Source: a virus. From it: 54,585 nt of DNA. The notes under the pieces are model-generated. The model did not search any database, was not told where the DNA came from, and saw only the letters and a program-made list of their open reading frames with translations. Below, one piece after another: positions 7,872-54,585 of the stretch; position 1 is the stretch's first letter; each line of letters opens with the position of its first letter. The stretch is taken from positions 1 through 54,585 of IMG/VR virus record IMGVR_UViG_3300028384_000913; one strand, given 5' to 3'. Made by a program: the position numbers and the translations under genes.

Positions 7872-7900
7872 GGGTGGTAGGTAACTACCACCCTTTTTTT
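7872..7900 (+). terminator. Intrinsic terminator with GTAA tetraloop
   Basis: Perfect 9-bp stem GGGTGGTAG / CTACCACCC closed by the stable tetraloop GTAA, followed at once by seven T. It ends the single-gene unit of the multi-HTH protein. The T-run finishes only 3 bases before the ATG of the amidinotransferase gene, so that gene can be reached only by read-through or has an unseen signal. Confidence 0.95.
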
Positions 7901-7903
7901 ATT

Positions 7904-16465: not shown

Positions 16466-16953
16466 ATAAGTTTGAATTCATAAAATATCCTTTTTTCGGA
16501 ATTAAACAAAAACCTTATCAGATTAAATATGACTTAACAAAAATGTATATCAAAAGAATGTATACAGGACATTTTGAAACAGTTGATGATAAATCTTTAG
16601 CAGGTGACTATTTTGCAAGATTAGCTACTCTTGAGACTAGGTTAAAATTTGATTATACTTGTAAGAACCTTCAAGAACTAATTTACAGTGGTTGTAGATG
16701 GGGAATGGATTGTGAAGCTAATCCACATGATTTATCAAAACCCATGACTGCCAGATCGTTCTGTAATAAGGTTGTAAAAGTAAATGATAATCTAGTTTGG
16801 ATAAAGAATGTGTCGTACCCTTTTACTATTCCAACAAGTGAGAAGCTAGAATTGAATGAAGAGATATTTGGGACTGTAGTGAAAGTCGGAGATGAGTGGT
16901 ATCTCAAAGAATTTTCTTTTGAGCCTAATAACAATACTTATATGAGGATATAA
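16462..16953 (+). CDS. Hypothetical protein, 163 aa
   Basis: I do not recognise this protein. It starts basic (F-E-F-I-K-Y-P-F-F-G-I-K-Q-K-P-Y), has a helical middle with A-R-L-A-T-L-E-T-R-L, three Cys (K-N-L...G-C-R-W-G-M-D-C-E and F-C-N-K) and a beta-strand C-terminus (V-V-K-V-G-D-E-W-Y-L-K). No signal or membrane segment. It is coupled on both sides by start-stop overlaps, between the basic peptide and the SpeD-like gene, so it is probably expressed with the replication genes. Confidence 0.55.
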   Translation: MNKFEFIKYPFFGIKQKPYQIKYDLTKMYIKRMYTGHFETVDDKSLAGDYFARLATLETRLKFDYTCKNLQELIYSGCRWGMDCEANPHDLSKPMTARSFCNKVVKVNDNLVWIKNVSYPFTIPTSEKLELNEEIFGTVVKVGDEWYLKEFSFEPNNNTYMRI

Positions 16954-17327
16954 TGCTAGTACATAAGCATCTGCTTCTTCAAGCTAGGTTTTTAGCAAGA
17001 GGCAGAGTTGAAAGATATTATGAGACTTGGATGAAGGTACTTGTAGAGAAAATTGGTATGGAATTGCTAACAGAACCAAAAGCAGTTAGATCTAATATGC
17101 CAGGAAACAGAGGTATTACCTGTTCTGCTATGATTACTACTAGTCACATAGTCTTACACACATGGGAAGATACACATCCAGGGCTATTACAGTTAGATGT
17201 TTATTCTTGTAAAGACTTTGAAATAAGTGATGTTATAGAAAAATTAAAAGATTTTTGGGTAGATGAACATACTATTCAGTTTAAATTTTTAGACAGAGAA
17301 AATGGGTTTACTGAGCTAAATGGGTAA
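16953..17327 (+). CDS. speD: S-adenosylmethionine decarboxylase-like protein
   Basis: 124 residues, the length of a small bacterial-type AdoMet decarboxylase before self-cleavage. The core T-T-S-H-I-V-L-H-T-W-E-D matches the family block S-H-(I/L)-x-x-H-T-(W/Y)-P-E, in which the Ser becomes the pyruvoyl cofactor; the later L-Q-L-D-V-Y-S-C-K-D-F holds the conserved Cys. The residue before Ser-His is Thr, where cellular enzymes usually have Glu, so self-processing may be altered. In cells the product, decarboxylated AdoMet, feeds spermidine synthesis; polyamines could help package phage DNA. No spermidine synthase is seen in this window. Confidence 0.78.
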   Translation: MLVHKHLLLQARFLARGRVERYYETWMKVLVEKIGMELLTEPKAVRSNMPGNRGITCSAMITTSHIVLHTWEDTHPGLLQLDVYSCKDFEISDVIEKLKDFWVDEHTIQFKFLDRENGFTELNG

Positions 17328-19755: not shown

Positions 19756-20567
19756 AAAAGTCTCTAGCAGATATGGCTTCTGCTGAAAAGCCGAAGAAGA
19801 AAACCTTTGGCGCTTTCAAAGAAGTAGATGGGGGTCAAGCACAGATTGACCTTAACATGCTTAGAGAACATAATGTTTTCTTTGCTACTCCTTGTTATGG
19901 TGGACAAGTTACTGATCAATTCTTTTTGTCTATGTTCAGAATGTCTCAGACATTCATGCAACACGGCATCAACTTCAGAATTACTACATTACGTAACGAA
20001 TCTTTAGTAACAAGAGCTAGAAACATTCTTACAGCAATGTTCCTAGAGTCTGATTGTACACACTTGATGTTCATTGATGCTGATATCGAGTTTGACTCAG
20101 AAGCTATTCTTAGAGCTTTAGCGTATGATAAACCAATCATGGCTGCGGCATATCCTAAGAAAGCTTTACCTGTACAGTACGCTATTAACTTCAAGTTTAT
20201 AGATCAAGCTACAAAACAGGTGAGAGTTGAAAACGGTGCTGTAGAAGTTCTAGACGCCTCTACAGGGTTTTTCTTAATTAAACGTGAAGTTATTGAGAAA
20301 ATGACAGCAGCACATCCTGAGCTACACTATCGTAATGATTCAAATATAGATCCAAAGTTTAACAAGTATTGTTATGCTTTGTTTGATACTATTTTAGATC
20401 CCGATGATAATCGCTATCTATCAGAAGACTATACTTTCTGTCGTAGATGGCAAAAGCTCGGAGGAGAGATTTGGTTAGACCCTAACACAAAACTCAATCA
20501 TGTTGGTGCATACACCTTTGAAGGTGATGTATCTAAGATTATTGGCCGTGAAAATCCAGAGTCTTAA
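19752..20567 (+). CDS. Glycosyltransferase, GT-A fold
   Basis: 271 residues. An N-terminal tail (1-32, K-S-L-A-D-M-A-S-A-E-K-P-K-K-K) precedes a GT-A fold: N-V-F-F-A-T-P-C-Y-G-G, then the R-N-E-S-L-V-T-R-A-R-N block, the metal-binding F-I-D-A-D-I-E-F (D-x-D type, about residues 112-116), an acceptor region S-T-G-F-F-L-I-K-R, and L-S-E-D-Y-T-F-C-R-R (E-D, likely general base). It should transfer a sugar from a nucleotide-sugar; the acceptor might be phage DNA, a virion protein or host polysaccharide. Coupled to the SSB gene by ATGA. Confidence 0.8.
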   Translation: MKKSLADMASAEKPKKKTFGAFKEVDGGQAQIDLNMLREHNVFFATPCYGGQVTDQFFLSMFRMSQTFMQHGINFRITTLRNESLVTRARNILTAMFLESDCTHLMFIDADIEFDSEAILRALAYDKPIMAAAYPKKALPVQYAINFKFIDQATKQVRVENGAVEVLDASTGFFLIKREVIEKMTAAHPELHYRNDSNIDPKFNKYCYALFDTILDPDDNRYLSEDYTFCRRWQKLGGEIWLDPNTKLNHVGAYTFEGDVSKIIGRENPES

Positions 20568-21468
20568 ATACGACAACCCTTCTTTTCAAGTTGAGGTTGA
20601 GTGGGATATAACACAAAGATGTAACTATTCTTGTTCATACTGTGCAAGTTATGATAACACTCAACCTTTTAACTTCAAAGAATTAGACGAGTACTTAGAT
20701 AGCTTTGAGTACTTGTCTAACTTCTTTGGTAACAAAACTATAAAGATTAATTTTTTAGGAGGCGAGCCTACACTCTTCAAGCAGTGGGTCAAATTAGTAA
20801 ACTGGTTATCTGAGCATAATTTTGTGATAAAACTAACAACAAATTTATCAGTACCAGTTATACAGTATATCAAAGTATTAAATGTAGGATTAGGGAACTT
20901 CATCAGTGCTAGTTATCACACTGAGTTTGCAGACTTAGATAAGTTTTATGAAAATGCAAATTACTTGCATCATGCAGGATTCTTGCATAGCATAACACTT
21001 CTACCTGACCCTAAGAACTGGGACTACTCGATGAAGTGTTATGAAAAACTTAGTAAGATAACGACAGTTAGTCTTAATAAGATAAAGAATGAATTTACAG
21101 ATTCTGTAGGCATCTCTGGAGATTTCATTGAATACTCGGACGAACAACTTAAAATGTTCAATCAAGTTCCAAGACGAGTTGATGAGAATATGAGTATTAT
21201 AGTTGATGGAGAAACTAAGCACCCGTCACTATATGAAATAAGAGAGAAATATAGTAATTTTAAAGGTATGAAGTGTGCAATAGGCAGAGATAGAATACAC
21301 ATCAAACCTAATGGTGACATCTATCCTAGTGCTTGTTTACTAAACTATCCTAGAGCTAAGATGGGAAATATCTTTAAGAAGAATATAATTAAACCTAAGA
21401 ATGCAGTGATCTGCCCATTCAATGAGTGTTTATGTGGACCTGATATTCGTATAGAAAAGTGGGCGTAG
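20548..21468 (+). CDS. Radical SAM enzyme 1
   Basis: Radical SAM core with C-N-Y-S-C-S-Y-C (Cys25, Cys29, Cys32 from the start chosen) for the [4Fe-4S]-SAM cluster, then the G-G-E-P block (N-F-L-G-G-E-P-T) that binds SAM. The C-terminal part has more Cys (K-C-A-I-G-R, S-A-C-L-L, I-C-P-F-N-E-C-L-C-G), arranged like a SPASM or twitch auxiliary cluster domain, typical of enzymes that modify peptides. Start uncertain: GTG 20548 overlaps the glycosyltransferase end by 20 bases; ATG 20527 with GAAGG nearby is the alternative. No substrate peptide is seen next to it, except the small Cys-containing frame at 21471. Confidence 0.85.
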   Translation: MKIQSLKYDNPSFQVEVEWDITQRCNYSCSYCASYDNTQPFNFKELDEYLDSFEYLSNFFGNKTIKINFLGGEPTLFKQWVKLVNWLSEHNFVIKLTTNLSVPVIQYIKVLNVGLGNFISASYHTEFADLDKFYENANYLHHAGFLHSITLLPDPKNWDYSMKCYEKLSKITTVSLNKIKNEFTDSVGISGDFIEYSDEQLKMFNQVPRRVDENMSIIVDGETKHPSLYEIREKYSNFKGMKCAIGRDRIHIKPNGDIYPSACLLNYPRAKMGNIFKKNIIKPKNAVICPFNECLCGPDIRIEKWA

Positions 21469-34516: not shown

Positions 34517-35087
34517 AATAAATATAGAAAAAAGTTCTGTAGCGTTAGCGATAGAAAAAGACTACGGCATTGAATGGGGGTTTAATGAATCGCTCCCATT
34601 CGAGCCCTTTTTTCATTTGCGGGCATGTATTATAAAAGACATCACACTAGAACCAGGAGAGATTATACCAGTCCCGACTGGTATCTATGCTCAGTTAATG
34701 GATCCTTCATTCATCATTGAGGTTTGTACTTTTTATGACTACCTATTTGAGGAAGGTATCTCAGTGGTAGATTCTCCAATGCTTTTTGATTATACATTTA
34801 GGAATGAAATATGGGTTTTGATAAAAAATAATTTTAACAAACCTGTAATCATACCTCCGACAAAAAAACTAGCGACTTTCTCTGTTAGACAACTGCCACG
34901 AATGGAGTTAAATTACGTCGATTCGATAGACGAAGTTGCTTGGAATTTCAAAAGTTCGAAAAAATTTATTCAAGATATTAAGAAAAAAGTATATCCTGAT
35001 ATCTATGATATTAAAAAAGAAAGATTCTCTAAATTTTACTCTAGAGAAGATATAGCAACATATGTAAGGAAACACAATGGAAGTTAG
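34485..35087 (+). CDS. dUTPase-fold protein, diverged
   Basis: 200 residues with traces of a trimeric dUTPase: L-E-P-G-E-I-I-P-V-P-T-G-I-Y-A-Q-L is like the strand leading to motif 2, and V-V-D-S-P-M...D-Y-T-F-R-N-E-I-W-V-L-I-K-N matches motif 3 (G-V-I-D-x-x-Y-x-G-x-I-x-V), but with about four extra residues between the Asp and the Tyr. I-P-P-T-K-K-L-A-T-F-S-V is like motif 4 (K-x-x-R-I-A-Q). The glycine-rich C-terminal motif 5 is missing. It could still bind dUTP/dCTP or have another role. The start is ATG 34485, 31 bases inside the upstream gene; TTG 34494 is another. Confidence 0.6.
   Translation: MNLLSSLKTCKINIEKSSVALAIEKDYGIEWGFNESLPFEPFFHLRACIIKDITLEPGEIIPVPTGIYAQLMDPSFIIEVCTFYDYLFEEGISVVDSPMLFDYTFRNEIWVLIKNNFNKPVIIPPTKKLATFSVRQLPRMELNYVDSIDEVAWNFKSSKKFIQDIKKKVYPDIYDIKKERFSKFYSREDIATYVRKHNGS
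34665..34684. repeat. 9-bp inverted repeat inside the dUTPase-like gene
   Basis: ATACCAGTC (34665-34673) and GACTGGTAT (34676-34684) are perfect arms around CC. It lies in the codons of the conserved I-P-V-P-T-G-I segment, so it may be chance from protein sequence; it would form a tight hairpin in the mRNA. Confidence 0.45.
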
Positions 35088-35748
35088 AATTATTAGCTAC
35101 TCACAAACACCTGAAGACTTAGTAGTGGGTAATGATATACAAGAACTCATAGCCTATTGCGCTAGAGTTTCTAATCCTGATAATCAAATGTCCTCTGAAA
35201 CTTCAGAAAAACTATTAAAATATTTAATCAGGGAAAAACACTGGTCACCCTTTGAAATGGTATCAGTCTGTATGGAGATCACCACAACTCGTGATATCGC
35301 TAGACAGATTTTACGGCATCGGTCATTCTCATTCCAAGAGTTTAGCCAACGGTATGCAAATCCGTTAGAAGGGTTGAAAAGAGTAACTCGGGAAGCTAGA
35401 TTACAAGACTATAAGAATAGACAGAATAGCATTGAAACTGACGATAACGCATTACAACAGCAATGGGCTGCTCAACAAGATTTAGTATGGCTTCAAGCTG
35501 TTAAAGCTTATAACTGGGCAATAGAAATGGGTATTGCTAAAGAACAAGCTAGAGCAGTTCTGCCAGAAGGCATGACTGAATCAAGATTATATGTTAATGG
35601 TACTCTTAGATCATGGTTACACTATATTGATTTGCGTGAAAAAAATGGAACACAGAAAGAGCATATCGAGATAGCGAGAGCTTGTGCTGAGGCAGTAACT
35701 GAAATATTCCCTATGGGTAAGTCGTATTTAGCACCTCCAAAAACATGA
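35077..35748 (+). CDS. thyX: Flavin-dependent thymidylate synthase
   Basis: Makes dTMP from dUMP with FAD and methylene-THF. The signature R-H-R-S-F-S-F-Q-E-F-S-Q-R-Y (about residues 87-100) is the ThyX motif R-H-R-x-x-S-x-x-x-x-S-x-R-Y. Other family blocks are present: C-A-R-V-S-N-P at the N-terminus and R-A-V-L-P-E-G-M-T near 167. Length 223, usual. Overlaps the dUTPase-like gene by 11 bases and the next gene by ATGA. With RNR, MazG and glutaredoxin it completes the deoxynucleotide pathway. Confidence 0.95.
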   Translation: MEVRIISYSQTPEDLVVGNDIQELIAYCARVSNPDNQMSSETSEKLLKYLIREKHWSPFEMVSVCMEITTTRDIARQILRHRSFSFQEFSQRYANPLEGLKRVTREARLQDYKNRQNSIETDDNALQQQWAAQQDLVWLQAVKAYNWAIEMGIAKEQARAVLPEGMTESRLYVNGTLRSWLHYIDLREKNGTQKEHIEIARACAEAVTEIFPMGKSYLAPPKT

Positions 35749-39228: not shown

Positions 39229-39434
39229 TTTCTTTTCCTTTTAAATCCAATAGGCTTGGAATACTTAATAGGAAATCCAAGCGAGCGTTCTTTATTAATA
39301 AATCTTTCAAGAGTAGGATAACTTAATTTTCCTGATGTGGCAAGACTAGATATCTTCTTATTTCTTCTAATACCCTTGTTTGGGAATCTTAAAAATTTAA
39401 ACTTTCCAACTTTGCTAATAGTTTTTGCTGCCAT
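39225..39434 (-). CDS. Small basic protein, 69 aa
   Basis: Strongly basic protein (F-K-F-L-R-F-P-N-K-G-I-R-R-N-K-K and a K-R-K-R-K end) with no family recognised. ATG 39434 overlaps the radical SAM stop as TAATG; an in-frame ATG at 39446 would lengthen it by four residues. It may bind nucleic acid or be a small virion protein. It is the gene directly after radical SAM enzyme 2. Confidence 0.6.
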   Translation of the reverse strand: MAAKTISKVGKFKFLRFPNKGIRRNKKISSLATSGKLSYPTLERFINKERSLGFPIKYSKPIGFKRKRK

Positions 39435-40420
39435 TAATTTCCCCACTGGTTTTTAGAGTCAAATATTGTTTTTTCACCAGTTTTCAAATTTTCCTCTGTT
39501 TTCTCTATAGATGAAACAATCTTACCACACTGTGACTTACATAAGGAAAAAGACCGTTCATATCCTTGAAGAAAATTCTGTAGTTTATTCCAGTAATCAT
39601 AACTTATTATTTTTTGGATGGGAACCTCAAAACCGTTAAACATGCGTTCAAACTTAGGCGGGTAATAAAATCTATCATTTTGCTGATCATAGTAATGACC
39701 CCCTGTCCAACAACACCTAAATACTAATCCTTCAGGAGATATATACCACTTACCCCAATCATCCCAAACACAATGAATTTGTCTTTTAGCTTCTTGATAT
39801 GCTTTTGTTTTCTTAGAGTGAACGAAAGATCCTGATTTAGGAGCAAAAACATCTCTAGAAGTTTTGACGGTAGAAAAAGTTGTGAACCCAGTTTCTTCAG
39901 CTAACTGCCTAGCCTGCTCCACTTGATGCTTGTTGTGTTCAAATACAATATATTTCCAGTGGACTTGGGCTTGAGTTGTATTGATAACTGATTTTGCATT
40001 TTCAAAAACGTTCTCGAACTTAGTATTAATCCGGTATATGTGATGAGTGTCCCATAAACCGTCTAAATCAAAATTTATTATATCATGTCTATCTAGTATA
40101 TTACCAACATCTGTCCAATAGTCGTGACCGTGTATACCGCCATTAGTGTGAATTAGTAAACGTACACCTCGTGATTTAACGTATGAAATGATTTCTCTAA
40201 ACTGCTTATTCATAATAGAATCACCAAAGTTCCCATTAAGAACAAGCCATTGTAAATTATCTAAAAGCTCTGGATTGAAAAGTTGCTTAAATCTGTCGAG
40301 AGAGATTGTATATTTAGAATCGTTTAAATTTACTGATAAAGGTTTTTGTCTATGACAGGCAGGACACTTAGCATTACACCGAAACGTAAGCTCTGTAGTA
40401 AGTTGTCTAATATTTCGCAT
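39434..40420 (-). CDS. Radical SAM enzyme 2 (tail operon)
   Basis: 328 residues. C-N-A-K-C-P-A-C at Cys15, Cys19, Cys22 binds the SAM cluster, in the C-x3-C-x2-C form. The C-terminal half has I-H-C-V-W-D, V-F-R-C-C-W, and S-L-C-K-S-Q-C-G, six Cys placed like a SPASM/twitch auxiliary cluster. The G-G-E-P block is not conserved in the usual form (V-L-N-G-N-F-G-D is at its place), so SAM binding may differ. It starts 3 bases after the tail-fibre gene and overlaps the next gene by TAATG. Probably a peptide- or protein-modifying enzyme; its target may be a neighbouring small or fibre protein. Confidence 0.82.
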   Translation of the reverse strand: MRNIRQLTTELTFRCNAKCPACHRQKPLSVNLNDSKYTISLDRFKQLFNPELLDNLQWLVLNGNFGDSIMNKQFREIISYVKSRGVRLLIHTNGGIHGHDYWTDVGNILDRHDIINFDLDGLWDTHHIYRINTKFENVFENAKSVINTTQAQVHWKYIVFEHNKHQVEQARQLAEETGFTTFSTVKTSRDVFAPKSGSFVHSKKTKAYQEAKRQIHCVWDDWGKWYISPEGLVFRCCWTGGHYYDQQNDRFYYPPKFERMFNGFEVPIQKIISYDYWNKLQNFLQGYERSFSLCKSQCGKIVSSIEKTEENLKTGEKTIFDSKNQWGN

Positions 40421-43614: not shown

Positions 43615-46600
43615 TTAAACTCCTACGGCAGTTACCATTACTGTTGCTGTACTATTTGCGTTATACTCACCAGATCCATCAGATGCTACCATTTTAAATG
43701 ACACTGATTGATTACTTGCAGCTGTTGTAACAACGATAGCAGGGTTTGCAACTGCGTCTTCTTGTGTAAGCACTGCATAAGATATTACAGGTCTATTAAT
43801 AAACTTAGAGCTTAACATACTTACAGTCTTTGGTGAGCCGTCGTATGTTACTGTTTGAGTAAAAGTAACTGTATCCTTTTCTATACTATACCTAAACTTA
43901 TCAATTGTAAAGTCAAATTCATTAGGCTTTGAATTGTTTACGATAAATTTTAATTGGAACTGACGGAATGTTTGAGAACCAGCCTGATAAGTTCTAAACC
44001 CGTCATTTGTTGCAGCGCCTATAAATTGTGATGTATCTACATTACCTTCGGCTCTACCACCTGTACCTGTTGCTGCATAGAGCGCAGAGTTATCTGCTGT
44101 TGTAGTTCTGATTAGAGTCTGAGCACTAATAGCTCCAAGTGCTCCTGCATAAGTATCACCAGAACCTGTATCTGAGAACTGAGTCAAGTCAACTAGGTGA
44201 TAGGTATTACCAGCAGTAGTTAGATTAGCAAAACCATTTGATCCTGTTAGTTCACCATTTGCAAAGTACGAAGCACCTAACTCAATAGCTGTAGCATTAA
44301 TAACGCCTGCAATCAGAGCATATGAATTAGCATTAGTGGTATCATTTACAAACTGACCATCATTCCAAATAGCATATACATTACCTACGCCACCTCCAGA
44401 CATAAGAGTTTGATTGTTTGAATCAAATCTAGAATCAACTACAGCAGAGTTGTTGAAACCTAAAACATGCCCTATACCGCCAAAATCAACATCGACTAGC
44501 ACATTATCGTTGGGTGAAGCTTCTGTAACACCTGAGATGATATCTTCATGAGTATCGTTGTATGTAGTTTTTACTTCTTGAGTAGCTTCAATATCTACAA
44601 ATATAGAACCTGTTACAGTAGAGCCAAAATCTCTAATTTTAGTAATATAAACACCATCATCTGCAACAAGTAGATCAGTTGCTGATCCTGAAATCGCAGA
44701 AAATCCTGTTGAAGTACCGTTTGAGTTATCTGTTTGGTTACCTCCTGCAACTGCTAATCCACCTGCAACAGAGTCTGCAAAAGAAGGAAAATTAGACTCG
44801 CCTTGGTTAGTATTTGTTATATCTGTAAAGTCTGTACCAGGAGAATCTTCGTTAAATGCAGACACAACAGTAGATCTATCTGGACGAGTTGTTGTAAGAG
44901 TAATACCTTGCACGCTCTCACTGAAGTTACCGCTAGTATCTCTAGCTCTAGCTAGATAAGTAAATTCACCAAAAGTATCAATTGGAATAGACTTTCTAGC
45001 AGTACCAGCAGAAACTGTAACAAGAGGATCAGATGCAACAAAATTGGTTACTGTATTAGACACAGAGCCAGGTGCTCTACGTATTACTACTTCTTTTAGA
45101 TCCAAATCCTTAAGATCTCCAGAGGTTGAACGAGGGTAGCTCCACAAAAGAGTAATCTGGTCAGTATTTTGACCTCCTGTAAAGTTAAATATATTATCAG
45201 GAGCAGCAGTTTTGCCTATAATATCTTTAGAAACATTAGACGACACTCCTCTAATGCTTTTATTGAGAGGTGTTACTCTAAAAGTAATCGAGTTAGTACC
45301 AGAAGTCGTACCTCTATTAATACCATTTACTGTAAATCTAATTTTACCATCATCCTCAACACCGGTAGCAGGTACTTTTACTGTGTTAAATGAAGTCAAG
45401 TCAGCACCGCCGTCATTAACCCCAATATCCTCAATATTATCAAGTCTATAAGAAATTTCGTAATCTGTAATTTCTTGACCCGTAATATGATCAAATGATA
45501 CGGTAGCACGTACAGCTGCACCACCACTTTGCTCACGGTATAGAGATTCGTGAATGGTAAGAGAAGTAACTTTTTGAATTGGGATGGTATCGACCGTAAC
45601 AGACTTAGTCACGAACGGGCTTCTTCTACCCATGACGTTTTTGTTACGAGCTTTAAGAGTAGTAGTTCCGATAGGTAAATCAGGGATAACTAAGTCATCT
45701 GTAAGGAATAACTTCTCAAACTCACCACCTACTGTTAAGTTGTAGACTCTGTTATTACCTAAGTTAAAGTTACCTGGGAATACTGTGGTATTAAAATCTA
45801 AAACAGCGGTGTTACCAGTAACATTGTGTAGCGTACCTACAGGATCAGAACTAATGTTCACAAAAGTAAAGCCAGCTAAGTTTGCCTTAGGTGTTTCTGC
45901 CAATTCGATTCTGTATATAGAATTAGCTGTTAAAGCTGCATTATAAGCAGCACTTGCGGGATCGTAAGATACATTTACTACTGCAAAAGTGTTGTTAAAA
46001 GCGGCTTGAACATTATCGCCTTCTTCAATAACAGGCACAGTATAGTGATCAACTTCAGCTCTATAAACTGTTTCATTTAATCCAGTTGTATATTGAATGT
46101 TAGCATCTATAGCTAGACCAGTATTTAAGTTTACTGTGTACTGACCAGATGACTTTTCTACACCGTCAACAAATAGTCTTACAAACTCACTTCTGCGAGG
46201 TTTAATTTCTAAAGGTATAGATGTACTTACAGAGTTAAGATTACCTTTAGTCACGTAGGTAAACTCAGAACCGCCTACATAGAAACTATTATTGTTGTAA
46301 AACTTAGCGTCAAGTAGCTGATTGATAGTTACATAGAATGGTGCTGGTGGAATAACATTAACAAGGGTCAGACCATTAGTGTTCTTGTTCTCAAACTTAA
46401 TAGTATTATTAGATTTATCAAAATCTGCTATATTCATGCTTAATTCAGTTATTTGAGTAGCGTGTCCGACAAAATTCAATAATCCTTGAACTGATGCCTT
46501 TTCTGTTACGGGTATTGAAACAAAATCAGTTCCTTTAAGATTATTAAACACACCTGCATCATTCACTTCTAAAACATGTTTAAAGAAGTTTTGGTCAAAT

Positions 46601-49600
46601 GCTACGTTTAGACCCTCTACAGTAAGCTGAACATTACCATCTAAAGTACCACCAGCCGTATCAACTGTAGTAATCGCATTACATAATAATCTGATTTCTC
46701 CGATATTAGTTTGGAAACCGTTCTTACCTTCTAAGGTAGCAGGAGTAGCATTGTCTTCGAGCACAGATGCATTGCTAACTGTAACAAATACAGAACCTGG
46801 CTCAGTGTTAGTAACTAGAGTAGCTCCGTCAGGTCTTGAAATAAAGTACTCAGTTTGTATATCTTGTCCGTAACCTAGAAGCTCAGTTCTCATATCAATA
46901 AGACCATCTACTCTTACAGTACCGTCAACTCTTCGTGTAGGAGTAGCACGAAACTCAAATAAAGGAGAAGGAGGAACAGATAGAGGTGATAAAATATCAG
47001 TATAAGCTGTTGGAGTGTAGTCAATAAAAGTATCAGAGTCTGTATATACATTAGATATGTATTCGACTGCACTAATAGTAACGTCTTCGTTTTCAGAGGA
47101 TCTAGATATGTCAGTTACTTTAAATAATTTACCCGCTTTGTTTGTATAGTAATCTTGTGAGTTTTCAATTTCTCCAAGTGTCCAAAGATCACCCTTTTTA
47201 GGAGCGTCATCAGCATTAAATGAAGTGATAGCGGTAAAGCCTCTTGATTCCTTGTCAAATTTAGCAATCGGATTAAGTGTGCCTAGATCAAAACCTGTTG
47301 AAACGCTGTCTGTTTTAGATAGAGCAAATTTGGTATTACTCAACAAGAATAAATCTATTTTATCATCAACAGTACTAAGAATTCGTAAAGCTAATGCGCC
47401 TGTATTAGCAGTAAAGAAAGAATTACTGAGACTAGGAGAAGTGAAGTGTTCGATAAACACATTAGTATTATTACCCGCTGCAACAGCAGAGTTAGAAGAT
47501 ATTTTACCGCTATATCCGTATGCTATTCCTGACATTTGTTGAGCAACAGAAATAACATCGCCAGGAGCGAGGGATAAAGCATCAGTGCTTGTTGTGAACT
47601 GAACATTTCTTCTTAAATACTTAGATGCAGCTATCTGATACTGCGCAAATCTCAAGGCTTGACTTCTTCTTGTAACACCGTTTAAGTCTAAAGACTGAAT
47701 ATTAGTTATAGTGCTTCTTTCTTCTCCATCGTTTGCTTCTGCACTATCAATTCTTACAGTTTCTCGTTTATAATGATTCGTAGGCTCTACATAACTAACA
47801 TCAACTCCTGAGATGATCTCGCTCTCTTTATTACCTGATATAGATAAAGATCCTTCTCTTATATTAGTCTCATTAAATACCGCCACAGGAAATTCATCTG
47901 GCATGTCTATAGCTAAGGTGAGTTTGCCCATCGAATAAACTAATGCTGCTCTGAAAGTACCTGCTAGACTGTTAATAACATCCATAGCTGCGCCTTCATC
48001 AGCTATAGTAACATTCAATGTGAATCTGCGCTCTTTAATTGCTGTTCCAGACGGTAACCCAATTAGTTGCTGCCTAGTTCCTGTGTAATCCCCCAAAGGT
48101 TTATGCCTAAACGACCCATCAGCTAATCCGTCTACTCCATGAAACTTACCTGTAACAGCATCACACCCGTCACAATACATAGCAACTTGATAGAATTTAT
48201 ACTTGTCAATATAGTCGTCAGGTATGCCTAATCCATAGGTTGTATTAGTTAATAAGTCGTAGATGATCCACACAGGGTTCTGTGTCCAAGAATACACAAA
48301 AGTACCGTCCCAAGTGCCTACATAAATCTGAGGATTAGTAACTGTCTGAACTTGTACAGAAGTTATACCTGCATCAACTAGATAAGCTTTGATAGTCCAA
48401 GTTGCAGTTGTGTAAGATAAATCTGCTGTTAGGGTGCGAGAGTCTCCATTAGCTAATGGAGTCTCAGTTGTGACGCCTGTTGTAGGAGAGACTAAAACCA
48501 CATCTTTAGAATTTGAATTATTGTTTGTAAGAGTTGCTTTTTGAGTAGATCCAGAACCTGTAGCACCGCCGTTAGTATTTGAAGTATAGGCAATAATAGT
48601 GGATGCACTGTTCTTAGACCACGCCCAGTTTTGTGATCTATTGATAGTACCTCCGCCACCAATACCTCCAAAACATCTCCATTCAACTTTATCACCTACA
48701 TTGAGTACGATAGGACCCCAAGAACCGCCAGCGCTTCCTAAATCTACTACTTTTACCCCGTTAACTTTAACATCGACTGATTTGCCATTGCTTGTACCAG
48801 TTAAAGTAGCTCCATCATCAATTACGTATGCTACCCACTCAGCCGTACCTGATCCAGCATTTTCTCTTATAACGTTCCAATTACCACCAGTTTGAGATCC
48901 AGAATAACCAGAATTAGCCTGAGTGATAGTAGTGCTAAATCCTGTATTATAACTAGTACCGGCAGACACTGTAATATCTAACCCGTACCCGAGTACGTCT
49001 GTACTAGCACCTGTTCCAGAAGCCTGCTTAGGTACGTATTGGATTGACTGTAGGTAATACCCTTTAGAAGCACGTTCTGCTTCTGCAATCTCTACATGTC
49101 TCCAATCAATTTCACCAGATGCTAAAGTCGGTTGATTATAATTAGAAGGAACCTTTACTAGCAAGCCTTTAACCATGGAGGTAAAATTAGGAATACCTCC
49201 AGTATGCTCGTTCACAGATTTAAGAGCATAACCAATATGCGCTGTTCTAGGATATGCTTGAGGAGCTTCTTCGATCTCAAACCATCCAAATGCTTGTAAG
49301 TTTTCACTTACAGAAGACTTTTCTGAATCGTCACTAGTTTTTTCAATAGAAAAACGATATCCATCATCGCTTCTGTCTGCAATTGGTATCTCTAGTTTAA
49401 CTGTAAATTTAAAGGGAGTATTAGTCTTACCGCTAAGAGTTCTTTCAAACTCAACGATATTATCAACTAATGGATTGCCTGTAAGAACTCGTTTTTTGAC
49501 TGTGATTTTAAAGCTTAGACTATGACTTCTAACGTCACCATTGCCATTAATTTTCTGAAGCTGGTTAATTACAAAAAAGAATTTTAGAGCATCCCAGCTT

Positions 49601-50031
49601 TGAGCTGAAGTTTCTTGATCAACAATACCAGAAGCAGGTAGACCCGTTAAGTTACCTTTCTTGAGAGTAACAGGAGATGCAAACTGTTGAGGAGTGATAA
49701 TATTATCGCCAAATACATTTAGTGGGGCTTGAGTAGTTGTGCCTGTACGAGATAAGGTTTTGAATACGTCAGTATTTTCATCACCTGTACTAAAATCTAT
49801 TAGATCGTCAATAGAACTATCTTGAATCTCAATATCTTGTGGACCATTAGGATTAATACGGTACACAGGACCTTCGCCTAAAGCTGTAGTAAGAAATAAG
49901 ATATCAGTTGAAAATAAAGAATTAGGATCTTCAGTAGGTGTACCGCCAGCACCTCCTCCGCCCTTGCCGCCCTTAGCTCCGCCGATTACAGGAACTAGTG
50001 TATTTTGATGTTTAATATAATTTTTACCCAT
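43615..50031 (-). CDS. Lambda gpJ-like tail tip (host specificity) protein
   Basis: 2138 residues, nearly double lambda gpJ (1132). Starts with a Gly-rich segment (V-I-G-G-A-K-G-G-K-G-G-G-G-A-G-G) then S-L-F-S-T-D and L-G-E-G-P-V-Y-R-I-N-P-N-G, the gpJ start pattern. The middle has Y-D-L-L-T-N-T-T-Y-G-L-G-I-P and N-S-L-A-G-T-F-R-A, as in tip proteins, then fibronectin-like repeats (V-T-S-L-T-I-H) and, at the end, beta-rich segments likely to contact the receptor. The C-terminal 600 residues are probably the adaptable receptor-binding part. It follows gpI by a 1-base overlap. Two thirds of its length has no clear homology to me. Confidence 0.9.
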   Translation of the reverse strand: MGKNYIKHQNTLVPVIGGAKGGKGGGGAGGTPTEDPNSLFSTDILFLTTALGEGPVYRINPNGPQDIEIQDSSIDDLIDFSTGDENTDVFKTLSRTGTTTQAPLNVFGDNIITPQQFASPVTLKKGNLTGLPASGIVDQETSAQSWDALKFFFVINQLQKINGNGDVRSHSLSFKITVKKRVLTGNPLVDNIVEFERTLSGKTNTPFKFTVKLEIPIADRSDDGYRFSIEKTSDDSEKSSVSENLQAFGWFEIEEAPQAYPRTAHIGYALKSVNEHTGGIPNFTSMVKGLLVKVPSNYNQPTLASGEIDWRHVEIAEAERASKGYYLQSIQYVPKQASGTGASTDVLGYGLDITVSAGTSYNTGFSTTITQANSGYSGSQTGGNWNVIRENAGSGTAEWVAYVIDDGATLTGTSNGKSVDVKVNGVKVVDLGSAGGSWGPIVLNVGDKVEWRCFGGIGGGGTINRSQNWAWSKNSASTIIAYTSNTNGGATGSGSTQKATLTNNNSNSKDVVLVSPTTGVTTETPLANGDSRTLTADLSYTTATWTIKAYLVDAGITSVQVQTVTNPQIYVGTWDGTFVYSWTQNPVWIIYDLLTNTTYGLGIPDDYIDKYKFYQVAMYCDGCDAVTGKFHGVDGLADGSFRHKPLGDYTGTRQQLIGLPSGTAIKERRFTLNVTIADEGAAMDVINSLAGTFRAALVYSMGKLTLAIDMPDEFPVAVFNETNIREGSLSISGNKESEIISGVDVSYVEPTNHYKRETVRIDSAEANDGEERSTITNIQSLDLNGVTRRSQALRFAQYQIAASKYLRRNVQFTTSTDALSLAPGDVISVAQQMSGIAYGYSGKISSNSAVAAGNNTNVFIEHFTSPSLSNSFFTANTGALALRILSTVDDKIDLFLLSNTKFALSKTDSVSTGFDLGTLNPIAKFDKESRGFTAITSFNADDAPKKGDLWTLGEIENSQDYYTNKAGKLFKVTDISRSSENEDVTISAVEYISNVYTDSDTFIDYTPTAYTDILSPLSVPPSPLFEFRATPTRRVDGTVRVDGLIDMRTELLGYGQDIQTEYFISRPDGATLVTNTEPGSVFVTVSNASVLEDNATPATLEGKNGFQTNIGEIRLLCNAITTVDTAGGTLDGNVQLTVEGLNVAFDQNFFKHVLEVNDAGVFNNLKGTDFVSIPVTEKASVQGLLNFVGHATQITELSMNIADFDKSNNTIKFENKNTNGLTLVNVIPPAPFYVTINQLLDAKFYNNNSFYVGGSEFTYVTKGNLNSVSTSIPLEIKPRRSEFVRLFVDGVEKSSGQYTVNLNTGLAIDANIQYTTGLNETVYRAEVDHYTVPVIEEGDNVQAAFNNTFAVVNVSYDPASAAYNAALTANSIYRIELAETPKANLAGFTFVNISSDPVGTLHNVTGNTAVLDFNTTVFPGNFNLGNNRVYNLTVGGEFEKLFLTDDLVIPDLPIGTTTLKARNKNVMGRRSPFVTKSVTVDTIPIQKVTSLTIHESLYREQSGGAAVRATVSFDHITGQEITDYEISYRLDNIEDIGVNDGGADLTSFNTVKVPATGVEDDGKIRFTVNGINRGTTSGTNSITFRVTPLNKSIRGVSSNVSKDIIGKTAAPDNIFNFTGGQNTDQITLLWSYPRSTSGDLKDLDLKEVVIRRAPGSVSNTVTNFVASDPLVTVSAGTARKSIPIDTFGEFTYLARARDTSGNFSESVQGITLTTTRPDRSTVVSAFNEDSPGTDFTDITNTNQGESNFPSFADSVAGGLAVAGGNQTDNSNGTSTGFSAISGSATDLLVADDGVYITKIRDFGSTVTGSIFVDIEATQEVKTTYNDTHEDIISGVTEASPNDNVLVDVDFGGIGHVLGFNNSAVVDSRFDSNNQTLMSGGGVGNVYAIWNDGQFVNDTTNANSYALIAGVINATAIELGASYFANGELTGSNGFANLTTAGNTYHLVDLTQFSDTGSGDTYAGALGAISAQTLIRTTTADNSALYAATGTGGRAEGNVDTSQFIGAATNDGFRTYQAGSQTFRQFQLKFIVNNSKPNEFDFTIDKFRYSIEKDTVTFTQTVTYDGSPKTVSMLSSKFINRPVISYAVLTQEDAVANPAIVVTTAASNQSVSFKMVASDGSGEYNANSTATVMVTAVGV
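48440..48465. repeat. 18-base palindrome in the gpJ gene
   Basis: CTCCATTAG at 48444-48452 is followed directly by CTAATGGAG (48453-48461), a perfect palindrome. Outside it, GAG and CTC pair after a T-T mismatch, giving 12 pairs in total. It lies in the coding region of the N-terminal third of gpJ, so may be chance or a protein-binding or structured site. Confidence 0.55.
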
Positions 50032-50783
50032 TAAAACTTATCCCCAACTTTTACGACATCATTTTTAGCATGTTCTTCAGATTCAATATACCCACTAATA
50101 AACTGCCCAGCTACTCTAACGAGTCCATAATGAAGTGCGATAGGAGTACCTGATTGTGTTGAGTTTGTCAATCCCCCGAACATGCCGTTCTCTCTCGTAG
50201 ATTGATCAGTCTCTTGCTGTGCTTTAGGTTTTTTGTTAAATAAAGATGAGATAAAACTCATAGCAATATTACCAAGCATGGACTTAGCAAATCCTGGCAT
50301 AGCAGAAAAGGCACTAAAGAGACCTCCACCACCAGCACTGTACCCAGCTGCCGCTGCAGAGGCTCCAGCGGCTCCACCGCCTGCTGCTGCAGCATAACCC
50401 CCAGCAGCACCAGCACCACTACCTGCTGCAGCTAGTCCTAGACCACCAGTTGCTACTGCTAGTCCTGCCACAGCCATAATTGCAAATAATCCGCCTCGTT
50501 TGCCGCCCCCACCCGCAATCATTGGAACGATATGGATAGTAGTATCCTCTTTTACTTGCCTAATGAAAAGATCTTCATTTGCTACGATATTATAATCACT
50601 ATCTAAGATACCAAAAGTTTCTTCAGCCTGCCCACAATCTACCAAATTTACATAATGGTTAAACTTTGGATGCATAGACTTTAAATAGTGCATAATATCT
50701 GAATAGGTAATCAGGTCAGCTTTATACTCTGATTCAGAAAATAAGTGTGAATAAGCTGAATGAATTTTAATTGTCGCTAACAA
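50031..50783 (-). CDS. Lambda gpI-like tail assembly protein
   Basis: Lambda-type I protein. The N-terminus (A-T-I-K-I-H-S-A-Y) is the strand of the ubiquitin-like domain (about 1-85); it ends I-H-I-V-P, followed by the Gly/Ala-rich, hydrophobic region (A-G-L-A-V-A-T-G-G-L-G-L-A-A-A-G and more, about 95-175), and a Q-S-G-T-P-I-A-L-H-Y-G-L-V-R-V-A-G C-terminal domain. Start TTG 50783, with GAGGA 8 bases before; TTG 50807 is alternative. It overlaps the JAMM gene by 17 bases and gpJ by one. The usual role is maturation of the tail tip. Confidence 0.82.
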   Translation of the reverse strand: MLATIKIHSAYSHLFSESEYKADLITYSDIMHYLKSMHPKFNHYVNLVDCGQAEETFGILDSDYNIVANEDLFIRQVKEDTTIHIVPMIAGGGGKRGGLFAIMAVAGLAVATGGLGLAAAGSGAGAAGGYAAAAGGGAAGASAAAAGYSAGGGGLFSAFSAMPGFAKSMLGNIAMSFISSLFNKKPKAQQETDQSTRENGMFGGLTNSTQSGTPIALHYGLVRVAGQFISGYIESEEHAKNDVVKVGDKF

Positions 50784-51144
50784 GATGTCTATCCTCAAAC
50801 TTATCAAAGATAAGTGCGTCTCTATTTTGGTCTAACCAGTATATGAAAAATTTATTATTAAATCCTACCAAAAATTTATATTCTTGGAAAGCGGCACTTA
50901 CTTTATCTTCCTTACTTGGTATGGGGTTTTCGTCTCCTGGATGAGAATGAAAAATGCCCCATATATTTCCATCATTTTTTACTAAATCTGCTGGGTCTAG
51001 TAAAAAAGATAACTTAGGAGTAGTAGATATATTCTTACAAGGAATATATTTAAAATCTTTAGTGATTATGCCTACAGCTTCGCGAGGATAGTCTTGCATA
51101 GCATGACTATTCATATCTGCTTTTAATTCATCATATCTTTCCAT
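50767..51144 (-). CDS. JAMM/MPN metallopeptidase, K N-domain-like
   Basis: 125 residues from ATG 51144 (AGGGG 10 bases before; the frame is open to 51198 but begins inside the previous gene). The JAMM zinc site is complete: Glu22 in R-E-A-V-G, then H-S-H-P-G-D-E-N-P-I-P-S-K-E-D (His66, His68, Ser77, Asp80). In lambda gpK this domain and an NlpC/P60 domain are one protein; here they are separate genes. Likely tail-assembly or cell-wall processing. Confidence 0.85.
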   Translation of the reverse strand: MERYDELKADMNSHAMQDYPREAVGIITKDFKYIPCKNISTTPKLSFLLDPADLVKNDGNIWGIFHSHPGDENPIPSKEDKVSAAFQEYKFLVGFNNKFFIYWLDQNRDALIFDKFEDRHLVSDN

Positions 51145-51554
51145 CTGTATACCCCTAAAGTATATTGCTTGTAGTACCTTCCATAAGGCGCAATCCAACT
51201 AGTATGTTCAATCATGGTTTGTAGTATTTTGTTATTACCGACGTACAAAGCACAGTGATTGGCTACGTTAGTTGCTCCAAGACTCATAACAATAATATCA
51301 TACATTTTCGGCTGAGTAACTTTAACCCATCCATTACTCTTATCATTGAACCCATCTATGAAAAATTGGGAATTTGTTTTAGAGTACCAGTCTTCATCTA
51401 CTATATTACAGAAATCTGATGTATTATAAGGTAAATGAATATCTAATTCTTTTTTATACACAAAACAGCATAAATTAAAACAGTCAATGCCTGTTTCTGG
51501 ATTGTTACCTAAATGTAAATATGGAAAACCAGTATAAGAATTATACCATGTCAT
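51123..51554 (-). CDS. NlpC/P60-like peptidase, copy 2
   Basis: 143 residues. G-I-D-C-F-N-L-C (Cys25 candidate) and N-H-C-A-L-Y-V-G-N-N-K-I-L-Q (His near 101) fit the Cys-His pair of NlpC/P60 papain-like peptidases, and the last part (I-E-H-T-S-W) carries a possible third polar residue. Phages use such proteins to cut peptidoglycan peptides during DNA entry, or for tail assembly (lambda gpK). It overlaps the other NlpC gene by 14 bases and the JAMM gene. The two copies share fold and order but little identity. Confidence 0.75.
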   Translation of the reverse strand: MTWYNSYTGFPYLHLGNNPETGIDCFNLCCFVYKKELDIHLPYNTSDFCNIVDEDWYSKTNSQFFIDGFNDKSNGWVKVTQPKMYDIIVMSLGATNVANHCALYVGNNKILQTMIEHTSWIAPYGRYYKQYTLGVYRWKDMMN

Positions 51555-51930
51555 TGTGTCTATAGATGGTGTATAGTTTATCTAACCAATAGTTTGATAA
51601 AGTTACTATACACGACGATCCCCCTTCTTCAACGTGTAGCATTTTTGTAGGTTGTAAAAACATACCGAAATGTGTTATTAAATCTGACTTCTCTGACTTA
51701 AATACCATTACATCATAATTTATTGCAGATGTCAATTCTACTTTTATAGCACACGAAGATGCCCAATCATCAACGTTAGTTGTAGAAAATTGTTTCATCC
51801 ATGCTCTAGATTTAGGATAAGGGGGTATAGTAAAATCAATATTAAGCTCTTCAGAATAAAACTTTCTGATTAATTCAATACAATCAACCTCACCATAATT
51901 ATGTTTGAGACCTAAATATTTATGTACCAC
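51541..51930 (-). CDS. NlpC/P60-like peptidase, copy 1
   Basis: 129 residues. L-K-H-N-Y-G-E-V-D-C-I-E-L-I (Cys17) is the catalytic-Cys helix typical of phage NlpC/P60 proteins; L-I-T-H-F-G-M-F-L has the His. The third active-site position is not clear. It may be an active endopeptidase, a structural tail-tip relative, or half of a heterodimer with the next gene. Starts within the end of radical SAM enzyme 3 (19-base overlap), so translation is tied to it. Confidence 0.75.
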   Translation of the reverse strand: MVHKYLGLKHNYGEVDCIELIRKFYSEELNIDFTIPPYPKSRAWMKQFSTTNVDDWASSCAIKVELTSAINYDVMVFKSEKSDLITHFGMFLQPTKMLHVEEGGSSCIVTLSNYWLDKLYTIYRHNDMV

Positions 51931-53108
51931 GATGCATACTCGGGGAAAACTGATTCAAAAGATTCATTTCTAGTTAAATCGTACTTAGTATTAAAAGATT
52001 TAAACTCAGGTAACAGATTAGAGTCATCTTTTGAATTCATATATGTAATCCAACTCTTAATCATATTTATCTCGTCGTTAGTAAACTTATTGTAGTGCTC
52101 AAGTAAAAATTCTTTGTATTGATGATTAATCTTTCTTTTTGCCTCTTTAGGTAGGCAAGTAATTGACATATGATTAGGCATTATTAAAGTAGTTCCGTGA
52201 AGTTGTACACCTCGTTCTTTTGACCAAAGTAATAAATCAGGCATAGAAGAGATACTATAAATACTAATTACTGAACTTATTGTTTGAATATACTCTTTAA
52301 AATGGTTAACATTATTTTGAAAAGTATTCCATGAAAGTCCTTTTCTAGAATATTCAGCTTTGTCACCAAAACCTTCACAACTTGGCCACACTTTGACATG
52401 TTTAAAATTTTGCCATAGTTGTTTAATGTCGTGTTTTTTAAACTTAGTATAACTCAGATTAGAGTTATAGCTTAGGCTAATGCGAGAAGATATACCTTTC
52501 TCAATCAAATAGTTTAACAATTTATAATGACCGTCTTGAACAAAAGGCTCTCCACCAGCAAAGTATATATCTCGTAAATGAGTCGATATATAATCAATAT
52601 TGTTCCAAAAAACTTCATTATCAGTATACTTATCTATAGCACCTTTCAAAGAAGTTGGCATTTCTCTATACCAACTAGTCGAAGATTCAGGGCCACACAT
52701 TCTACATCGGAAATTACAAGTATTTCCGAAACGTACATCTAAATATACAGGGAATGAATTTAGAGAACCATCTTCTTCAGTCATAGATTGAAGAACTGCA
52801 AGATCCTTGTAGTTTTCATTCATGATTTGACGATGACTTTTACTTCCGAGCTTTTCTTTATTGAAACACGCCCATTCACACTCTGGAACACTTTTTCCTT
52901 CTAAAAAAGATTTTCTGATTTTTCTATAGGCTTCACCATTCCATACATCTGAAAAAGTGTCTTTATGTGTACCGAGCACACTTACTTCAGGCGCATATTC
53001 AGCAAAACAGCAGACCTTATACTCTCCTGAAATTGTACCGAATAAGTGCATCCAAGGAAGTATGCAACCTTTTATATTATTGTTTTGGAATTGTTCTACC
53101 TGTTGCAG
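51912..53108 (-). CDS. Radical SAM enzyme 3 with N-terminal twitch-like domain
   Basis: 398 residues from the CTG at 53108. The SAM-cluster motif is C-N-F-R-C-R-M-C (Cys131, Cys135, Cys138), followed by Y-F-A-G-G-E-P-F, the SAM-binding G-G-E-P. Extra Cys come before it (G-C-I-L-P-W, V-C-C-F, E-C-E-W-A-C, residues 15-81), an auxiliary cluster domain on the N-terminal side, as in the twitch-type radical SAM proteins reported from marine phages. The start is unusual: a CTG 5 bases after GGAGG in the gpL gene is the best placed; a frame from 53183 lacks support. It lies between gpL and NlpC in the tail operon, which suggests a tail-protein substrate. Confidence 0.83.
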   Translation of the reverse strand: MQQVEQFQNNNIKGCILPWMHLFGTISGEYKVCCFAEYAPEVSVLGTHKDTFSDVWNGEAYRKIRKSFLEGKSVPECEWACFNKEKLGSKSHRQIMNENYKDLAVLQSMTEEDGSLNSFPVYLDVRFGNTCNFRCRMCGPESSTSWYREMPTSLKGAIDKYTDNEVFWNNIDYISTHLRDIYFAGGEPFVQDGHYKLLNYLIEKGISSRISLSYNSNLSYTKFKKHDIKQLWQNFKHVKVWPSCEGFGDKAEYSRKGLSWNTFQNNVNHFKEYIQTISSVISIYSISSMPDLLLWSKERGVQLHGTTLIMPNHMSITCLPKEAKRKINHQYKEFLLEHYNKFTNDEINMIKSWITYMNSKDDSNLLPEFKSFNTKYDLTRNESFESVFPEYASWYINI

Positions 53109-54585
53109 GAAAGCCTCCAAAATGAATTGAGTTATTTCTAATCTGACAAGCTTGTAAAGACTTACTACAGATATCACCTGCATTTGTAGCTGCTACTTGA
53201 TTATTGGCGGCAATAGGATTTGCATTGGAAGTAAGCGTAGTTCCAGGAATTGCAAGACCGCCAGGGCCAGGGTACTGACACTCAGGACCTTTATATCTCC
53301 ACTGACAGGTGTTTTTATAAAACTTTCTTGAAGGAACTTGGTTTCTAAAATACTGTAGCCAAGAAATTAGCCCGAATTGTGCTACCTCATTATTTAAAGA
53401 CTCTAGGTGGTCAATTTTGAACGTATCTTCAACATAAGATTCTGGGTCTGCTTGTTGGTTTACAATAAATATAGGATCACCAACAGCTGTATTAGCGTCT
53501 AGAGCATTTGATAAGAATAAAAATCTATTCTCCTCAATAGATTCGATTGTGCCTTCAGTTGATCCAGTAGATTTAACATTGTCACCAACACGATAAGGCA
53601 TTGCATTATATACCTCAACTACATTAGCAGTAACAAAACGTGCAGAGCTATATTCAGGCCATACATCAAGAAAATTAGCAAAAGTTGTTTTTATATTGAC
53701 AACTCCGCCTAATAAATCTCTAGTGTCGGCTTTTTCTTCAACCCATTCTCCGCCTACGCTTAAAGTTTCAGATCTAGAAAAAGATGCGTTTGCTTTACCA
53801 TATGCACTCACCATATCTGAATCATACGACAAACCATTTGCTCTGGCTCTTGTTAGTACATCAAAACCTTCATCCCCTGCTGAACCAAAGTCACTAGGAG
53901 TTGCATCAATGGTTCTTGGATCGATTCCATGCACTAATTCACCGTTTACAATTGCTTGGCAAGCGTTAGAAGAATTATTACCAACTAAGAAAGGATCTTC
54001 AATTAATCTTGATACGATATTATCTAAATTAAACATTGTAAGTGTGAGTTCATTGATTCTGCCATCAGAGCTTTGATCAATAGAAGAAATATTTAAAGGG
54101 AATGGGATATAAGAGTCGCCTTGGTGAGTAACATTGTAATTTAAATCAGAAATTAAATCCCCTCTTACATCAGCAAATCTAATAGGAAACTCGTTAGGCC
54201 AAGCTCTACCTTCGCCTAAATTAGTGGGATTACCTGCTTCATTAACAGGAAACCACTCGCCCGGGTAGTAAACTTCATACAATCTTACAACAGGGTTTTG
54301 AGTAAAAGCGTTCTTTTCAGCTATAAAACCACTTGGACCAATTGATTGAATAGTAGCAATAGCTGTAACAGTATTGCCTCCAAAAGCGTTTGCCTGAAAA
54401 GGGATGGCACTGGAATTATTTAGCGCACCATTAGCAGTATTGTTTGTAAAAATAGAGTTAGAATGAATTACCTCAAGATTAGAAAACTCAGATAGAGAGT
54501 TAGCTAATTTTACTTTAAGAACGTTAGAGGATAGATCAACATTAGCAATCACGCCTGTTGCCGCAGAGGTGTTGCCTACTATGAC
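53077..54585 (-). CDS. Lambda gpL-like tail tip protein (Fe-S), 5' partial
   Basis: Frame open at the window edge, so the gene starts beyond it; GTG 54552 is only the first in-frame start. The last part has the four-Cys pattern of lambda gpL, which carries a [4Fe-4S] cluster: C-Q-W-R-Y-K-G-P-E-C-Q-Y-P, then D-I-C-S-K-S-L-Q-A-C-Q-I-R and F-G-G-F-P-A. Before that, L-T-M-F-N-L-D-N-I and D-I-L-like segments are gpL-type beta strands, with a long inserted region (about 260-380 of the visible part). Lambda gpL is 232 residues; here over 500, so it is extended. Its end overlaps radical SAM enzyme 3. Confidence 0.85.
   Translation of the reverse strand, partial: VIVGNTSAATGVIANVDLSSNVLKVKLANSLSEFSNLEVIHSNSIFTNNTANGALNNSSAIPFQANAFGGNTVTAIATIQSIGPSGFIAEKNAFTQNPVVRLYEVYYPGEWFPVNEAGNPTNLGEGRAWPNEFPIRFADVRGDLISDLNYNVTHQGDSYIPFPLNISSIDQSSDGRINELTLTMFNLDNIVSRLIEDPFLVGNNSSNACQAIVNGELVHGIDPRTIDATPSDFGSAGDEGFDVLTRARANGLSYDSDMVSAYGKANASFSRSETLSVGGEWVEEKADTRDLLGGVVNIKTTFANFLDVWPEYSSARFVTANVVEVYNAMPYRVGDNVKSTGSTEGTIESIEENRFLFLSNALDANTAVGDPIFIVNQQADPESYVEDTFKIDHLESLNNEVAQFGLISWLQYFRNQVPSRKFYKNTCQWRYKGPECQYPGPGGLAIPGTTLTSNANPIAANNQVAATNAGDICSKSLQACQIRNNSIHFGGFPATGRTIPKQ

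Follow-up and report, generated by a model that had tools for sequence, protein, structure and literature searches.

A radical SAM gene at a fixed site among the tail-tip genes of lambda-like phages, uncultured and mostly marine

Background

What would a radical SAM enzyme do in the tail-tip operon of a lambda-like phage? The question arises in IMG/VR virus record IMGVR_UViG_3300028384_000913, positions 1 to 54,585 of which were analysed (the window), where such a gene, here called rSAM1, stands between the gene for the tail hub protein gpL and that for an NlpC/P60 protein. A sequence-only reading had proposed that its product modifies a tail protein, or else relates to the Fe-S cluster of gpL. 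We compared the locus across viral contigs and weighed these readings against others; rSAM1 probably tailors a component of the tail or of the host surface.

Results

Identity and setting of rSAM1

The genes run in the order L-rSAM-NlpC-NlpC-JAB-I-J (Table 1), in which the lambda-type tail-tip order of L, K (JAB/NlpC), I and J is present. The initial description of a twitch-type radical SAM gene between gpL and NlpC is borne out by the match of rSAM1 to the N_Twi_rSAM model NF033640 (E = 1.1e-107; 360.6 bits against a curated cut-off of 170 bits; positions 5-398 of 398) and by recurrence at the same site; the span quoted for it, 51912-54585, holds as far as rSAM1 itself, the remainder being gpL. 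A Pfam scan of the open reading frame (ORF) places SPASM at residues 40-106, with Radical_SAM after it, and found no RRE domain; no precursor-like ORF was found between gpL, rSAM1 and NlpC1.

Table 1. Positions in the window of rSAM1, its motifs, the neighbouring tail genes and the second tail-linked radical SAM gene
Feature	Positions	Strand	Basis
gpL, tail hub protein, 5' end past window	53077..54585	-	PF05100 1.1e-27, TIGR01600 over cut-off
Inferred rSAM1 start: GGAGG (53118-53114), 5 nt spacer, CTG (53108-53106)	53106..53118	-	inside gpL FGGFP codons
rSAM1, N-terminal-twitch radical SAM enzyme, 398 aa	51912..53108	-	NF033640, PF13186+PF04055, inferred CTG start
N-terminal twitch-like domain of rSAM1	52866..53066	-	Pfam SPASM 1.2e-6; cysteines invariant in set A2
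CX3CX2C radical SAM cluster motif (CNFRCRMC)	52695..52718	-	sequence; invariant in set A2 and in 156/156 copies
GGEP motif	52545..52556	-	invariant in set A2, 156/156 copies
NlpC1 (NlpC/P60 protein 1), catalytic Cys and His retained	51541..51930	-	PF00877, alignment
NlpC2 (NlpC/P60 protein 2)	51123..51554	-	PF00877 2e-11, alignment
Free-standing JAB peptidase, counterpart of lambda gpK JAB half	50767..51144	-	PF14464 2.1e-9, phrog_30
gpI-like tail assembly protein, Gly-rich linker	50031..50807	-	phrog_32 3.2e-19
gpJ, central fibre / host specificity protein	43615..50031	-	phrog_31 3.9e-90
rSAM3, second tail-linked radical SAM, right behind 500-aa fibre-like gene	39434..40420	-	phrog_21308 1.5e-30

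N-terminal to the CX3CX2C motif, cysteines C4, C22, C23, C66 and C70 are invariant in set A2 (the codons of the twitch cysteines lie at 53066, 53012 and 53009 (CC), 52880 and 52868), and the first of the twitch cysteines (C..PW..CC) accompany both catalytic motifs in every one of the 156 full-length copies. The median dN/dS of rSAM1 is about 0.12, compared with 0.09 for gpL and 0.24 for NlpC1, and the gene looks like that of a working enzyme rather than a relic.

Relatives with more upstream sequence have gpM between the tape measure gene and gpL; gpM (L088:4810-6411) carries a Laminin_G_3 lectin insert that is present in most of the lineage and missing in several sublineages. NlpC1 is absent along with rSAM1 in L139, L141 and L147.

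A fixed site, with losses

In an entire lineage of lambda-like phages, uncultured and for the most part marine, rSAM1 sits at the same exact site. Among 214 viral-contig loci obtained from gpL searches, the position between gpL and the next gene holds rSAM1 in 184 and is empty in 30; no other gene occupies it in any of the 214, which rejects a generic hotspot for cargo. The search for the same gene order in related phages that the sequence-only reading had suggested thus gives a location that is fixed, and the random placement which that reading had named as refuting it is not what is seen. Counted by gpL cluster (clusters defined at 92%), rSAM1 is present in 59 of 71, and when the genes near gpL are clustered, it is the only common tail gene that cleanly separates phages with rSAM1 from those without.

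On a gpL tree, a quick build in which deep branches are weak, rSAM1 switches between present and absent four times or more, and nested losses are seen in the lineages of L133/L056/L067 and of L147. In L067, which lacks the gene, an ATGA is where the frame of gpL meets that of NlpC1. Several lineages have lost rSAM1, and their L, NlpC, JAB, I and J show no clear change to match.

Exchange of rSAM1 alleles

Where two loci share a gpL identity of 88% or more (478 pairs), rSAM1 falls below 70% in 110 of the pairs, with the medians for NlpC1, NlpC2 and JAB no lower than 0.92. The window and L008, for example, share 90% identity in gpL and 57% in rSAM1; between L130 and L131, identity is 100% as far as the gpL stop, drops to about 65% within rSAM1 and is back at 100% beyond it. 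Sharp two-sided replacement was seen for rSAM1 in 77 pairs, falling in four gpL clusters (pairs that are not independent, 70 of the 77 coming from one gpL cluster, and among which assembly chimeras are possible), as against a single pair for gpI. More than one allele group is held within 7 of 27 gpL clusters for rSAM1, 0 of 26 for NlpC1 and 5 of 24 for gpI; despite this last figure, the single sharp replacement of gpI set against 77 of rSAM1 rejects the idea that the two genes are swapped equally. In these comparisons, rSAM1 alleles are exchanged gene-precisely while their neighbours stay constant. As for gpJ, it stays alike when rSAM1 swaps in the few comparable pairs, and these 20 pairs are too few for a conclusion on co-variation of the two genes.

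A probable CTG start within gpL

From the gpL stop to the conserved CxLPW, relatives of the window mostly have no ATG, GTG or TTG. In each of the 58 unique loci that lack a canonical start (scored within 48 nt), the frame is open and contains a CTG, with a GGAGG within the gpL FGGFP codons, a count that reflects shared kinship rather than 58 independent events; among the 46 unique loci that do have a canonical start, 27 have no such in-frame CTG. Other rSAM1 clades begin at ordinary ATG codons in ATGA or TAATG overlaps. These patterns suggest that rSAM1 starts at a CTG dual-coded with gpL, a rare type of start.

The overlap with both neighbours that had been read from the sequence thus stands, at 32 nt with gpL when counted from the CTG, the best-supported start, and at 19 nt with NlpC1 (whose GTG lies at 51930). 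The 107-nt gpL overlap that follows from an ATG at 53183 does not: this start finds no support among relatives and is probably an artefact of the ORF caller. The embedding of the start signal in gpL, together with the NlpC1 overlap, implies co-expression.

Search for a partner in the tail

Residues that track the presence of rSAM1 were sought in gpL, NlpC1, NlpC2, JAB, gpI and positions 1-1600 of gpJ, yielding a few scattered weak columns and none that convinces. The long form of gpM, with the LamG lectin insert, occurs in 46 of 50 clusters with rSAM1 versus 1 of 10 without; as a partner the insert is rejected, being kept by L139/L141/L147 and L069, which have no rSAM1, and missing in L077/L079/L084/L171, which do. 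The tape measure is variable and uncorrelated with rSAM1 alleles (r = 0.13), and a rule by which phages have either rSAM1 or a second gpI fails, the long gpI of L067 and L133 being unrelated extensions and L174 having both.

Other radical SAM and accessory genes of the window

The gene immediately upstream of rSAM3 is fibre-like in 75 of the 81 loci examined, with a median identity of 77% for rSAM3 versus 44% for the fibre. rSAM3 is kept in the phage of L069, which has no rSAM1, and the contigs of L067 and L309 lack it. A third radical SAM gene, with a SPASM-like end (20500-21468, +), adjoins a conserved phage gene (19752-20567, phrog_1574). Elsewhere the window carries a TctA gene of the tripartite tricarboxylate transporter type (7.5e-85; 1655-2980, +), followed by a gene with no Pfam match that may encode a TctC-like partner (2977-3993, +); two tandem genes of phrog_25854 (7874-9992, +), the first with no Pfam match, which we take, as an impression, to encode amidinotransferase-type proteins; and genes for AdoMet decarboxylase (16953-17327, +) and ThyX (35077-35748, +).

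Copies outside the tail, and the fold

Within its clade rSAM1 has a median identity of 45%; its identity to the other relatives found does not exceed about 34%. Two copies that lie outside tail operons nest inside the tail clade of the rSAM tree. One of them (L220) sits on a Neomarinimicrobiota contig, flanked by ordinary chromosomal genes, and is the sole close copy in 245 Neomarinimicrobiota genomes; its genome gave no gpL match, in a search that lacked its own positive control, and on that footing an origin as a prophage remnant was set aside. The other (L181) is viral and adjoins genes for a nucleotide-sugar epimerase, a 2OG-Fe(II) oxygenase and a glycosyltransferase. In bacteria and other phages, the genes beside members of the family gave no consistent clue to a substrate; UDP-glucose dehydrogenase, NodU-like carbamoyltransferase or glycosyltransferases are sometimes found next to relatives. 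Radical SAM genes also form tandem arrays, up to about eight genes long, on viral contigs and in Bacteriovoracaceae-type bacteria (L187-L219, L239, L240, L266).

An AlphaFold2 model of rSAM1 (pLDDT 84.5, pTM 0.84) was compared with solved structures by Foldseek, the best matches being BlsE, SkfB, CteB and SuiB, with EpeE just outside E = 0.001 (TM 0.30-0.37). The single best match is BlsE, which acts on a nucleoside sugar. The modelled fold points to the SPASM/twitch group and indicates no substrate.

Discussion

Our leading hypothesis, held tentatively, is that rSAM1 modifies a tail-tip protein. A tail substrate is favoured by the fixed site, the coupled translation and the second tail-linked radical SAM gene; the preserved catalytic motifs, the low dN/dS and the predominance of SPASM peptide maturases among the significant fold matches, at low TM-scores, speak for it too, as does the family's want of a fixed neighbour outside this lineage. 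On the other side, the scan for an RRE and the search for a precursor-like ORF came back empty, the tape measure is uncoupled from rSAM1, gpJ remains alike across swaps in the few comparable pairs, and the best single fold match is an enzyme of sugar chemistry. The proposal of tail-protein modification made from the sequence therefore keeps the support of the fixed position and is weakened by the want of tracking residues, by the losses, by divergent alleles beside near-identical tail genes and by the two members outside the tail.

Under the tail-modification hypothesis, rSAM1 would be co-expressed with gpL and NlpC1 and act late, while tails are assembled. A 5'-deoxyadenosyl radical generated by the enzyme would lead to a covalent change of a conserved residue in a neighbouring tail-tip protein, with gpL as the first candidate and then gpM, gpI or NlpC1. 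The modification might be a cross-link, an epimer or an oxidation that aids virion stability or DNA delivery and is non-essential; the weak CTG start may hold the enzyme at a low level compared with its structural substrate, and the divergent alleles would perform the same reaction at the same conserved site. We are a shade more hesitant about the fuller claim, that rSAM1 puts a covalent modification made by radical SAM chemistry on a tail-tip protein, the first such in a virion tail, in a widespread lineage with a second radical SAM gene behind its tail fibre. The literature searched held no case of a virion protein modified by a radical SAM enzyme.

Not far behind tail modification, though on the whole somewhat unlikely, is the reading that rSAM1 acts instead on the host. 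Late in infection it would alter a surface sugar, a lipid or another component of the envelope and thereby limit superinfection or re-adsorption. A host target is favoured by the losses, the lack of co-varying residues, the allele swapping and the non-tail copies: gene-precise exchange suggests selection for variety, L220 sits on a Neomarinimicrobiota chromosome in a genome with no gpL match, and L181, like some relatives elsewhere, lies beside sugar genes. Pelagimyophages have been noted to carry radical SAM cassettes in a hypervariable cluster for host recognition (PMC7029224), and the T5 Llp gene adjoins that of the receptor-binding protein (PMC9586334); both observations count in its favour. 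Held against it are the locking of rSAM1 in overlapping frames between gpL and NlpC1, at a site with no other cargo, the failure of gpJ to swap with rSAM1 in the few comparable pairs, and expression with the tail genes, which would presumably be late for superinfection exclusion. On this reading rSAM1 would be inherited with the tail tip since both concern host recognition. Should rSAM1 act on the host, it would represent an enzyme of a new kind, carried alongside a tail tip.

A role for rSAM1 in evading or antagonising a host defence, or in making a small molecule, seems improbable; on that view the enzyme would be dispensable and would have diversified since defences recognise it. Exchange of alleles between constant neighbours, the losses and a weak similarity to viperin would fit such a role; the viperin model NF038283 gives rSAM1 21.2 bits, far under its cut-off of 180, and the gene is fixed in the tail operon rather than in an early accessory region. 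We give very little weight to a gpL-rSAM frameshift fusion as the product in place of a separate protein: the 58 loci without ATG, GTG or TTG near the conserved start region have a frame open into gpL, but other clades start at an ordinary ATG, no shared slippery site is visible and every start-less copy has its CTG and GGAGG. Weakest of all is the link to the gpL Fe-S cluster (that rSAM1, an iron-sulfur enzyme encoded beside gpL, installs, repairs or senses it), an idea left unsupported because the four Fe-S type cysteines of gpL are invariant in phages without rSAM1 too, and disfavoured further by two lambda-like isolates checked, in which the K-position gene follows gpL directly; to our knowledge, the loading of Fe-S clusters is not an activity of any radical SAM enzyme.

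Since rSAM1 is fixed in the tail-tip operon, the search space for its substrate comes down to about eight proteins, and natural relatives without the gene, together with the allele-swapped pairs, make the substrate question testable.

Comparison with known systems

The operon shares with the L-K-I-J operon of lambda (PMC10721106, PMC1779556) the order of gpL, JAB and NlpC peptidases, gpI and gpJ. Lambda has no radical SAM gene, and its gpK joins JAB and NlpC in one protein (PMC1779556), whereas three separate genes, two NlpC and one JAB, are found here. rSAM1 matches NF033640, a family described as twitch domain-containing radical SAM proteins with no function named, over its full length, having the N-terminal twitch and the radical SAM core; members elsewhere stand in tandem arrays or among changing neighbours, whereas rSAM1 is single and fixed. 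With the SPASM/twitch peptide maturases SkfB, CteB, SuiB and EpeE it shares a radical SAM core and an auxiliary cluster domain, but it departs from such RiPP maturases in that the SPASM match is N-terminal, TM-scores are low and neither an adjacent precursor peptide nor an RRE was found. T5 Llp, which like Cor of T1 and phi80 acts in superinfection exclusion (PMC9586334), is likewise an accessory protein encoded next to a receptor-binding tail gene; Llp and Cor are small lipoproteins, not enzymes, whereas rSAM1 is a 398-residue radical SAM protein. The pelagimyophage cassettes (PMC7029224) are another case, in marine phages, of radical SAM genes within a variable region associated with the tail; those phages are myophages with a hypervariable island that gains and loses cassettes, whereas here a single gene stays at one place in a tail-tip operon of siphophage type.
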